In this document: piece after piece, positions 4,634 to 6,840 of the stretch
Layout of the letters: every line of letters starts with the position of its first letter
Position numbering within the stretch: position 1 is the stretch's first letter
DNA from: Nocardioides luteus
GTDB taxonomy: Bacteria; Actinomycetota; Actinomycetes; Propionibacteriales; Nocardioidaceae
Direction: 5' to 3'
DNA length: 64,000 nucleotides
Assembly: GCF_015752315.1 (NCBI RefSeq)
Contig: NZ_JADOVJ010000001.1
Coordinates: forward strand, 2,782,501-2,846,500
The notes under the pieces: generated by a model
Seen by the model: the letters and a program-made list of their open reading frames with translations, nothing else
Told to the model about the DNA's origin: nothing
The model's database searches: none
Program-made: the position numbers and the translations under genes

Positions 4634-5869
4634 TCACCACGAGATCCCGACCACACGAGACGCATACGCCGCCTTCACAGCCTCGACCAGATCAGCCGCT
4701 CCGACGCGCCGCTCGACACCCGCAGCGACGTCACGTACCTGCACCTCCCCGGCCTCCGCCTCGACAGCCCCGATGACCGCGATGAGCGGCTCACGCCGAC
4801 GGCGGGACTCCCGGATCCGAGCGCCGAGCGAGCCCTCAGGATCCAGGCGCGGACGCAGACCCTCGGCGACGAGCGCGTCGACGAGCGCCCGCGCCGCCCG
4901 GTCCTGAGACGAGGAGACCGGCAGGACGGCGAGCTGGACGGGTGCGAGCCACAACGGGAGGCGCCCCTGGTAGCGCTCGAGCACCGCCGCGGTGACACGC
5001 TCCATGGAGCCGACGGTGCCGCGGTGGACCATCACGACCCGCTGCCGGGAGCCGTCGGCGGCGTCGTAGGTCAGGTCGAACCGCTCGGGCTGGTTGAAGT
5101 CGACCTGGACGGTGGCGATGGTCTCCTCGTGGCCACGCGGGTCGACGACCTGGAGGTCGAGCTTGGGTCCGTAGAAGGCGGCCTCACCCGGTGCCTCGAC
5201 GACCTCGACGCCCGCCTCGGAGGCCGCCTTCCTCAACGCACCCTCGGCACCGTGCCACTGCTCGGCGGAGCCGAGATAGGACGGCGAGGAGTCGCGGAGG
5301 GAGAGGCGTACGTAGTCGACCCGGAGACCGAGGATGTCCTGCGCCCTAAGCGCAGAGCTCAGTGCCTTCGCGGCCTCCTCGGCCACCTGGTCGGGGCGGC
5401 AGAAGACGTGGGTGTCGTCGAGGTTGATCTGACGTACCCGGCTCAGCCCGGACAGCACCCCGGAGCGCTCGGCACGGAACATCGGGGCGAGCTCGTGGAG
5501 CCGGACCGGGAGCTCTCGGTAGGAGTGTGGGCGCGCCCGGTAGACCAGCGCATGGTGCGGGCAGTTCGCGGGCCGCAGAACGAGGTCGTCCTCCTCCCCG
5601 GCCGAGCCCGACCCGACGGCCATCGGCGGGAACATGTCGTCGGCGAACTTCGCCCAGTGTCCCGACCGCTCGAAGAGCGCGCGTTTGCCGAGCACCGGGG
5701 TCTTGACCGGTACGCAGCCGTCGGCCCTGGCCAGGTCGGCGGCCAGCCGTTCCAGCTCGGCGAAGACGACAGCCCCGTCGGGCAGCCACAACGGCAGCCC
5801 CGAGCCGGCCAGCGGGTCGGTGGCGAAGATGCCGAGGTCGCGGTTGAGGTCGCGATGATCGAGGTTCAT
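4634..5869 (-). CDS. Shortened threonyl-tRNA synthetase (catalytic and anticodon-binding domains only)
   Basis: A 411-residue class II synthetase. It matches the ThrRS core but lacks the roughly 240-residue N-terminal TGS and editing domains. The zinc ligands appear conserved: C103 in PANCPHH, H154 in NLDDTHVFC and H282 in VHRGTVGSMER. Motif 2 is around residues 131-146 (FRAERSG...RVR) and the motif 3 arginine is R291. The C-terminal anticodon-binding fold follows PLWLAPVQ. The catalytic core therefore looks intact, but proofreading of Ser-tRNA(Thr) is absent. The ATG at 5869 has an AGGAG site five bases upstream, and the leader carries attenuator-like structures (5871-6020). A full-length ThrRS is presumably elsewhere. 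Stress-inducible or inhibitor-insensitive backup use is inference. Confidence 0.9.
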   Translation of the reverse strand: MNLDHRDLNRDLGIFATDPLAGSGLPLWLPDGAVVFAELERLAADLARADGCVPVKTPVLGKRALFERSGHWAKFADDMFPPMAVGSGSAGEEDDLVLRPANCPHHALVYRARPHSYRELPVRLHELAPMFRAERSGVLSGLSRVRQINLDDTHVFCRPDQVAEEAAKALSSALRAQDILGLRVDYVRLSLRDSSPSYLGSAEQWHGAEGALRKAASEAGVEVVEAPGEAAFYGPKLDLQVVDPRGHEETIATVQVDFNQPERFDLTYDAADGSRQRVVMVHRGTVGSMERVTAAVLERYQGRLPLWLAPVQLAVLPVSSSQDRAARALVDALVAEGLRPRLDPEGSLGARIRESRRRREPLIAVIGAVEAEAGEVQVRDVAAGVERRVGAADLVEAVKAAYASRVVGISW

Positions 5870-5870
5870 G

Positions 5871-5900
5871 GGTGCTCCTGGGGATGAGGCCCGGAGCACC
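5871..5900 (-). promoter_or_regulatory. Hairpin sequestering the ThrRS-like ribosome-binding site
   Basis: GGTGCTCC at 5871-5878 and GGAGCACC at 5893-5900 form a perfect 8-base inverted repeat. On the coding strand the 3' arm is the Shine-Dalgarno sequence itself (AGGAGCACCC before ATG 5869). The 5' arm (read TGCTCCGGG on the coding strand) can instead pair with the 5' arm of the upstream terminator, which would free the ribosome site. Confidence 0.65.
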
Positions 5901-5918
5901 ACCACCAGAGACGAAGAA

Positions 5919-5945
5919 CCGCCCCGGAGCACTGCTCCGGGGCGG
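5919..5945 (-). terminator. Attenuator terminator in ThrRS-like leader
   Basis: CCGCCCCGGAGCA and TGCTCCGGGGCGG are perfect 13-base arms about one central base. On the coding strand they are followed by TTCTTCGTCT. The hairpin lies between the stop of a 16-residue leader ORF (5970) and the ThrRS-like start. It is read as an intrinsic terminator that can be pre-empted by alternative pairings. Confidence 0.65.
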
Positions 5946-5969
5946 TCTGCGAAAGGGGTGGACAGCAGG

Positions 5970-6020
5970 TCAGCGCCGGAGTGGGTCCGGCGTCGCCGTG
6001 CTCATCGCGCGCTGCTGCAT
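5970..6020 (-). CDS. Putative leader peptide of the ThrRS-like gene
   Basis: A 16-codon ORF (MQQRAMSTATPDPLRR) opens with ATG at 6020 behind an AAGGTGA ribosome site and ends at TGA 5970-5972. It holds two threonine codons (ACG GCG ACG). Codons for PDPLRR overlap a 7-base hairpin (5974-5992) whose 3' arm CTCCGG can pair with CCGGAG in the downstream terminator. This is the 1:2 / 2:3 / 3:4 layout of amino-acid attenuators. Only two Thr codons is a modest signal, so the amino acid sensed is inferred from the downstream gene. Confidence 0.5.
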   Translation of the reverse strand: MQQRAMSTATPDPLRR

Positions 6021-6072
6021 GCCGCTCACCTTAACGGCTCGCCGTCGCGTACGCATCCACGATTCCGAGCCG

Positions 6073-6840
6073 TCAGAGCTCGGTGGTGTCGAGGAGCTCG
6101 CCGAGCTCCTCGCGGGAGAGGTCGCGCATGTCGCCGGGCTTCATGGTGCCCAGCCGGACCGGGCCGATCCGGGTGCGGGTCAGGCGGGTGACCGGGTGGC
6201 CGAGGTGATCGAGGAGGCGGCGCACGATGCGGTTGCGTCCCTCGTGGATGACCAGCTCGATGATCGACTTGTCCTTGCGGGTCTCCATGATCCGGGCCTT
6301 GGTCACCGTGACCGGGCCGTCCTCGAGGGTGACGCCGGCGAGGAGCCGCTTGCGTACGTTGGGGAAGATCTCGCCCTTGACCTCGGCGACATAGGTCTTG
6401 TCGACCTCGTAGCTGGGGTGGGCCAGCCGGTGGGCGAAGTCGCCGTCGTTGGTGAGGATGATCAGGCCCTCGGTGTCGGTGTCGAGACGGCCGACGTGGA
6501 AGAGGCGCTCCGGGCGGTCGGCGACCAGGTCGGAGAGGTTGCGCCGGCCTTCCGGGTCGCTCATCGTCGAGACCACGCCCCGCGGCTTGTTGAGGACCAG
6601 GTAGACCTTGCCGGAGATCGGCGGGAGCCGCTTGCCGCCGACGCGTACGACGTCCTTGCCCGGGTCGACCTTGGTGCCGAGGCGGGTGACGACCTCGCCG
6701 TTGACCTCGACCTCGCCGTTGAGCATCAGGATCTCGCTGCCGCGGCGCGACGCGACGCCGGCCAGGGCCAGCAGCTTCTGGAGCCGGATCAGGCCCTCGT
6801 CGTCCAGCGGCAGGTCGTCACGCTCAGGTAGGTCACTCAC
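6073..6840 (-). CDS. rluB: 23S rRNA pseudouridine synthase (RluB/RsuA family)
   Basis: A 255-residue pseudouridine synthase. An N-terminal S4 RNA-binding domain (LQKLLALAGVASRRGSE) is followed by the catalytic domain with the GRLDxDTEGL motif holding the nucleophilic aspartate. The length and S4 domain place it in the RsuA/RluB/E/F group; the exact uridine modified is not certain. The GTG start at 6840 overlaps the scpB stop (GTGA). scpA-scpB-rluB is a conserved actinobacterial order. Confidence 0.92.
   Translation of the reverse strand: MSDLPERDDLPLDDEGLIRLQKLLALAGVASRRGSEILMLNGEVEVNGEVVTRLGTKVDPGKDVVRVGGKRLPPISGKVYLVLNKPRGVVSTMSDPEGRRNLSDLVADRPERLFHVGRLDTDTEGLIILTNDGDFAHRLAHPSYEVDKTYVAEVKGEIFPNVRKRLLAGVTLEDGPVTVTKARIMETRKDKSIIELVIHEGRNRIVRRLLDHLGHPVTRLTRTRIGPVRLGTMKPGDMRDLSREELGELLDTTEL

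Follow-up and report, generated by a model that had tools for sequence, protein, structure and literature searches.

A conserved leader with the predicted anatomy of a threonyl-tRNA attenuator ahead of short threonyl-tRNA synthetase genes in actinobacteria

Described attenuators and the thrS leader of the window

In Firmicutes, T-boxes are found on thrZ and thrS, and a T-box is used for the second threonyl-tRNA synthetase (ThrRS). Amino-acid attenuators of actinobacteria are known at trp, trpS, leuS and ilvB, and a translational T-box is known at ileS (PMC1262725). The main text of that study has no occurrence of 'thrS' or 'threonyl' and presents no thrS case; its passages on the attenuators mention no case in which a terminator arm enters into exchange with a hairpin over the Shine-Dalgarno (SD) sequence as well. 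In Streptomyces lividans TK24, a leader gene, thrL (SLIV_19412), precedes thrS (SLIV_19410) and encodes the peptide MKRVRPFLETTPGFVPAR; the passages on thrL report leaderless transcription and one hairpin, and describe termination as unclear (PMC8079986). In Bacillus subtilis, the sections on the vmlR leader present an upstream ORF within an anti-antiterminator hairpin, an antiterminator, an intrinsic terminator, and an SD sequence partly sequestered by a hairpin. There, a pairing in the read-through RNA is predicted to break the SD hairpin, and both kinds of attenuation are reported; the idea that a single stalled ribosome attenuates transcription and translation together has been put forward for individual genes, vmlR among them (PMC9226507).

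The stretch of DNA analyzed here (the window) is 64,000 nt long. It carries, on the minus strand, a gene for a short ThrRS preceded by the leader elements collected in Table 1. The 411-aa protein scores above the cut-off for NCBIfam TIGR00418 thrS, and a Pfam search found no TGS or tRNA_SAD (editing-domain) match in it. Because the 5.82-Mb genome has a second ThrRS match elsewhere in a much longer frame (862-aa open frame), the short enzyme looks like a spare. The nearest named relative found was Nocardioides luteus, whose ThrRS is 91% identical. Of 215 genomes of the genus, 10 have a short ThrRS (E <= 1e-90), as do 62 of the 394 class genomes sampled (E <= 1e-92), the window genome being counted in both cases. 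The threonyl-tRNA synthetase SCO3778 of Streptomyces coelicolor is one that we take to be a short ThrRS. In the statements on SCO3778 in a published account, a sigma-E binding site is present only under ethanol stress (PMC10771440).

Table 1. Features of the thrS leader region, in positions of the window
Feature	Position	Strand	Remarks
-10-like box TAAGGT	6028..6033	-	7 nt ahead of leader ATG; predicted transcript start at or near leader start codon
Leader ORF MQQRAMSTATPDPLRR*	5970..6020	-	16 codons, ATG 6020 to TGA 5970; regulatory codons ACG GCG ACG at 5999-5991
Segment 1, CGCCGGA	5986..5992	-	Directly 3' of Thr codons; near-invariant columns in alignments A1 and A2
Segment 2, TCCGGCG	5974..5980	-	Partner is 1, or 3 (as CTCCGG 5981-5976)
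Segment 3, 5' arm of terminator-like hairpin	5934..5947	-	3b, 5941-5931, comprises the apical part and the loop
Segment 4, 3' arm of terminator-like hairpin	5917..5930	-	Followed by T-rich tail
Segment 5, GGTGCTCCGGG	5890..5900	-	Partner is SD strand 6, or 3b; basis, strand-swap test
Segment 6, AGGAGCACC	5871..5879	-	Includes thrS Shine-Dalgarno sequence
Short ThrRS, 411 aa	4634..5869	-	Class II core and anticodon-binding domain only; Pfam, NCBIfam TIGR00418
Pseudouridine synthase gene, upstream neighbor (named rluB here)	ends 6073	-	S4 and PseudoU_synth_2 domains

All leader elements claimed in a preliminary description of this DNA were located on the minus strand, at or within 2 nt of the positions given there. 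They include the 16-codon ORF with ACG GCG ACG and the 7-base hairpin at its end, formed by segments 1 and 2; the last threonine codon supplies the first two bases of segment 1. The terminator-like hairpin, with the loop AGT, is likewise present, but its arms are 14 nt long and extend beyond the 13-base arms at 5945-5919 first assigned to it. The 8-base hairpin said to lie over AGGAG (GGTGCTCC/GGAGCACC, 5900-5893/5878-5871) covers the GGAG of that sequence. Of the alternative pairings, that of CTCCGG (5981-5976) with CCGGAG (5940-5935), here called 2:3, exists as proposed, as does that between the terminator arm and the last hairpin, in which CCCGGAGCA (5941-5933) meets TGCTCCGGG (5898-5890), here called 3b:5.

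When the leader stretch 6020-5865 (156 nt) was folded, as the same description had suggested, it reached -86.3 kcal/mol (z = -5.1), and 0 of 200 dinucleotide shuffles folded as low. The sequence CAGCAG at the start of the leader ORF (6018-6012) is complementary to CTGCTG after the stop codon (5967-5961); this stem is present in the minimum-energy fold, and a further alternative pairing is possible there. A generic terminator scan found 0 terminators in the window, the terminator-like hairpin thus going unreported. No Rfam family matched the window at its gathering score, and a relaxed search of 5800-6100 gave three matches at E <= 1, none of them a T-box or a related family; the best (E 0.0024, 23.5 bits against a cut-off of 43) lies on the opposite strand and was rejected.

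The leader is similar to thrL of S. lividans in that a threonine leader peptide stands ahead of a ThrRS gene, the VPAR-ending type of peptide being seen in many of the loci described below. The published passages on thrL, however, concern one species and mention neither an antiterminator nor an SD hairpin nor a 3b:5 exchange (PMC8079986). As laid out in the sections on vmlR, that leader also has an SD-sequestering hairpin whose upstream strand can pair with a freed terminator arm (5:6 and 3b:5 here), but it is induced by antibiotic-stalled ribosomes, serves an ABCF resistance gene, involves NusG-dependent pausing and belongs to Bacilli (PMC9226507). With the trp, trpS, leuS and ilvB attenuators the leader shares runs of codons for the regulated amino acid, predicted mutual exclusion of antiterminator and terminator-like hairpin, and service to synthetase genes. 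As with a T-box, a synthetase would be induced when its tRNA is uncharged; a T-box binds the tRNA directly, whereas here a threonine leader ORF would do the sensing. A T-box reading of the locus was rejected, there being no T-box model match at the Rfam gathering score in the window or at E <= 1 in 5800-6100.

The view in the preliminary description that no identical design was known is not supported. As far as the passages on these leaders go, the thrL leader peptide (S. lividans) and a transcription-plus-translation layout of the same logic (vmlR of B. subtilis) are already in print. What is new here is the wide conservation, the evidence for coevolution of the coupling strand, and the near-exclusive use of rare ACG codons. 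In the literature covered, to which the likeliest earlier source of a thrS attenuator (the survey of Lopatovskaya et al. 2010, Mol Biol 44:128) does not belong, we found no antiterminator or SD exchange for thrS, no account of its actinobacterial spread and no comparative evidence on the coupling strand.

The leader peptide, its promoter and its link to thrS

For comparison, 118 short-ThrRS loci were chosen, L020 and L022, whose match to short ThrRS is split, having been omitted before the counts. L003 and L076 were dropped for lack of upstream DNA, which left 116 loci, the window included, with 110 distinct leaders. Some genomes are in two collections and so occur twice among the 116 loci, and for this reason tests were run over clusters. 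Among the loci are ones from Nocardioides, Kribbella, Nocardia, Rhodococcus, Promicromonospora, Saccharopolyspora, Intrasporangium, Acidimicrobiia and Nitriliruptoraceae.

A threonine leader ORF was found in all 116 loci. Its peptide has the motif TTTP in 111 of them, TTP in 3, TTAP in 1 and TATP in 1; TTTP leaders arose by chance in 2 of 1160 shuffled regions. The Thr-Ala-Thr of the window is the sole TATP case, and the other Nocardioides leaders of its type have three ACG codons; the window leader has lost one of three threonine codons. In general, the codon of the threonine run is ACG (101, 108 and 115 of the 116 loci at positions 1, 2 and 3), in contrast to the thrS genes themselves, where 973 of 1082 threonine codons are ACC (90%) and 47 are ACG (4%). 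Since only the third threonine codon overlaps hairpin 1, the ACG at the first two positions suggests that a codon read slowly or rarely has been selected for. Given that the leader threonines are nearly all encoded by ACG and those of the thrS genes mostly by ACC, the tRNA-Thr decoding ACG may be what the switch senses.

In every one of the 116 loci, a TAnnnT box lies 6-8 nt ahead of the in-frame leader start (6 nt in 39 loci, 7 nt in 70 and 8 nt in 7). The same scan on shuffled upstream DNA gave a mean of 5.2 and a maximum of 11 of 116 over 200 rounds. This spacing matches that of a leaderless transcript and puts the predicted start on the leader ATG. Initiation downstream of 5940, named in the preliminary description as evidence that would speak against the design, is opposed by the conserved -10 box and the start predicted from it. 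In L008 and L016, a TTGACG motif is found 7 nt ahead of the -10 box, too near for a usual -35 element.

Full-length thrS genes served as controls. Scanning of the whole upstream stretch of 24 such loci, 7 of which have less than 400 nt ahead of the thrS frame opening, found a TTTP leader in none and any TTP, TATP or TTAP ORF in 1, as did a narrower scan; ACGACGCCGG was present in none of the 24. The full-length thrS of the window genome itself has no TTTP leader.

A covariance model built from 45 leader loci had 74 matches at E <= 1e-4 in the 394 class genomes, spread over 70 of them. For 60 of the 62 short thrS genes, there is a model match 36-270 nt upstream on the same strand; at least 9 of these 60 loci are training rows, and others may come from training genomes listed under different names. 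The two short thrS genes with no model match lie at contig ends, with 54 and 109 nt of DNA ahead of them. Fourteen of the 74 matches are not upstream of a short thrS. Of these, 12 were viewed: 3 precede a full-length ThrRS (L176, L177 and L178, from three genomes and one family, with domains confirmed for L176), 1 has no thrS seen downstream and 8 are chance-like; the remaining two are both in genome G427. Ten of the 14 are weak, all below 40 bits, and the 8 viewed resemble chance hairpins, although some genuine thrS-linked matches likewise score below 40 bits. Since 60 of 62 short thrS genes and three full-length ThrRS genes carry a model match, the element is assigned to ThrRS genes, usually short and occasionally full-length. 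L187 (G455 contig 18, bases 116-202), the leader for which no thrS was seen, is a strong match and lies close to the end of its contig; a rearrangement or a break in the assembly may have orphaned it.

Coevolution and folding of the alternative pairings

At 75% identity, the leaders fall into 31 clusters. In a strand-swap test, the duplex energy of each pairing with its own strands was compared with that obtained when one strand was swapped between clusters (2000 permutations, 114 of the 116 loci; in the other 2, segment 5 is too short). Among the seven pairings tested, 3b:5 had the strongest coevolution signal, with -16.76 for own strands versus -12.97 swapped (z -7.0; 0 of 2000 permutations as low) and a value better than the cross mean in 30 of 31 clusters. 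Rescoring of 3b:5 with the loop plus three bases, with the longest exact match including the loop, or with strand 5 alone gave 0 of 2000 each time. The 5:6 pairing (z -4.1; 0 of 2000 as low) beat the cross mean in 25 of 31 clusters and was no better than it in 6; for 2:3 (z -3.1; 4 of 2000 as low) these figures were 24 and 7. Strand 5 with the last 8 nt ahead of the start codon gave 13 of 2000 as low. The control pairings 4:6, 3b:6, 4:5 and 2:5 had no signal (821, 900, 1644 and 254 of 2000, respectively). The 4:6 pairing, which would shut the ribosome site in the antiterminated state and seems possible in Nocardioides, was rejected on this absence of coevolution.

Examples come from the 3b and 5 strands, which read GGAGCA/TGCTCC in Nocardioides loci, GGCGAGTG/CACTCGCC in L008, CCGGAACAG/CTGTTCCGG in Nocardia (L091), and GGAGCAGA with TCTGCTC plus wobble in Prescottella (L087). 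In the window, the 3b:5 duplex (-19.1) is better than that with any of 100 strand-5 regions of other clusters, and the 5:6 pairing is equalled or bettered by 5% of foreign SD strands.

Two alignments were also used, A1 (plain MAFFT, 66 of the 116 loci) and A2 (45 of 116), the long-leader families lying outside both. RNAalifold on A1 picked the 2:3 pairing and, in addition, a helix joining 1 to 4; one of the 2:3 pairs is UA in 44 rows and CG in 16. In A2, 97.8% of 2:3 cells pair, and double-change cells number 13 as against 3.9 in shuffles; two of the five measures of this count test, double-change pairs (284 of 500) and further pair types (499 of 500), were not above shuffles. The 2:3, 3b:5 and 5:6 pairings are supported by coevolution at this level, and the 110 distinct leaders in 31 clusters show the signature of selection on the coupling strand itself. 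The chain of mutually exclusive pairs put forward in the preliminary description is borne out by the swap test, RNAalifold and the count test as conserved and co-varying across actinobacteria, and the check that it had proposed in related genomes finds conserved arms and co-varying pairings in the 31 clusters.

These data bear on a simpler reading, that of an attenuator of transcription only, in which 1:2, 2:3 and 3:4 would set termination, 5:6 would be unregulated or a constant feature that keeps translation low, and 3b:5 would have no role. The covariation of 2:3 agrees with it, as do the T-enriched tails and the weak release of the SD sequence in equilibrium folds (both below). Such a plain attenuator predicts no coevolution of 3b:5, however, and the signal there is the strongest of the seven and survives scoring on loop bases or on strand 5 alone; we regard this reading as unlikely.

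Folding was examined with parts of the leader masked. With a ribosome on the threonine codons and segment 4 absent, the end of the ORF and arm 3 share more than 3 expected pairs in 30 of the 31 clusters. In folds with the ribosome stalled, 4 held off and the SD strand absent, the mean expected pairs are 8.6 for 3b:5 and 2.5 for 2:3. These pairings share overlapping bases in the window and so compete; both exceed 2 expected pairs in 15 of 31 clusters only. The preliminary description proposed that pairing of the terminator arm with the last hairpin can release the ribosome site; the complementary strands are present, but the computed release is small at equilibrium. When 4 was masked and 3b offered, mean SD accessibility rose from 0.30 to 0.39 (p 0.001), with an increase in 25 of 31 clusters and one above 0.2 in 8, while in the window 5:6 still wins and accessibility goes from 0.2 to 0.2. 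The difference between own and foreign 3b (0.39 vs 0.34) is not significant (20 of 31 clusters, p 0.07). Whole-leader folds with ribosome masks gave 0.31-0.32 in all states, and they cannot separate the states because 3:4, being very stable, folds in either one. These model folds support the order of events rather than the final opening of the SD sequence. Because 5:6 often wins at equilibrium, a switch of this kind would rely on kinetics, segment 5 being made before segment 6.

The tail behind the terminator-like hairpin has a median of 5 T in 12, compared with 15% T overall. In 14 of 114 loci, the tail has at most 2 T in 12, and in 11 of these 14 (L038 and L126 being one sequence present twice) the 3b:5 duplex is in the best 10% of foreign partners. 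That 11 of 14 keep a strong 3b:5 suggests that regulation rests mainly on translation in the T-poor-tail lineages. L004-L007 and L010 have a long leader peptide reaching near the hairpin and long 3b:5 complementarity, with a T-poor tail in some, and are possibly a mainly translational version.

Such loci are what one would expect if the leader were mainly a translational attenuator, 3:4 serving for strand exchange and not as an effective terminator, and thrS being controlled by a stalled ribosome that frees the SD sequence. The thrL hairpin of S. lividans, described in its passages as one hairpin without a uridine-rich sequence, fits this as well (PMC8079986). The tails are, however, T-enriched on the whole, and 2:3 is conserved, as antitermination would need. 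Terminators of actinobacteria are, in addition, often U-poor. We place this reading second among the alternatives, as an improbable one. That there is no regulation at all, the hairpin serving only as terminator for the pseudouridine synthase gene, with ORF and pairings as chance products of GC-rich DNA, is consistent with the 52 nt between the end of that gene (6073) and the leader ATG, but is hardly credible when leader, -10 box and pairings accompany thrS in distant genera, the pairings co-vary between the 31 clusters, and TTTP leaders are so rare in shuffles.

Proposed mechanism and its significance

The leader is, in its predicted elements, a conserved one with the anatomy of a Thr-tRNA attenuator. 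The reading that we favor, and consider reasonably likely, is that of a ribosome-operated attenuator which responds to charged tRNA-Thr and controls both transcription and translation at once; the attenuator is probably coupled in this way. The switching steps (termination choice, antitermination and SD freeing) and the physiological signal are what we infer from the conserved elements, as follows. The transcript would begin at the leader ATG, as the conserved -10 box implies, and the leader peptide would be read from a leaderless message. When Thr-tRNA is ample, the ribosome would reach the stop codon and cover segment 2, so that 3:4 would pair and termination would be favored; in any read-through RNA, 5:6 would pair and hide the ribosome site. 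When Thr-tRNA is short, the ribosome would stall on the ACG codons and cover segment 1, leaving 2:3 to pair, and RNA polymerase would read on because this pairing would stop 3:4 from forming in time. The freed 3b would then pair with the emerging segment 5 and hold it off the Shine-Dalgarno strand, and thrS would therefore also be translated. The product, a spare ThrRS, would restore Thr-tRNA.

More tentatively, and at somewhat less than even confidence, we suggest that these leaders belong to one family of Thr-tRNA switches spread over the phylum, where 3b would signal twice, first in its release by antitermination and then in its capture of the SD-hiding strand. One stall on rare ACG codons of a leaderless message would in this way gate both transcription and translation of a spare ThrRS, and the species sensed would be a rare-codon tRNA-Thr.

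The selection seen on the coupling strand makes the idea of coupling directly testable by compensatory mutation, and the codon usage points to the ACG-reading tRNA-Thr as the sensed species. The leaders also supply an RNA family with no match in our Rfam search. If the proposed mechanism is true, they would be an actinobacterial leader-peptide counterpart to the Firmicutes T-box of the second ThrRS.
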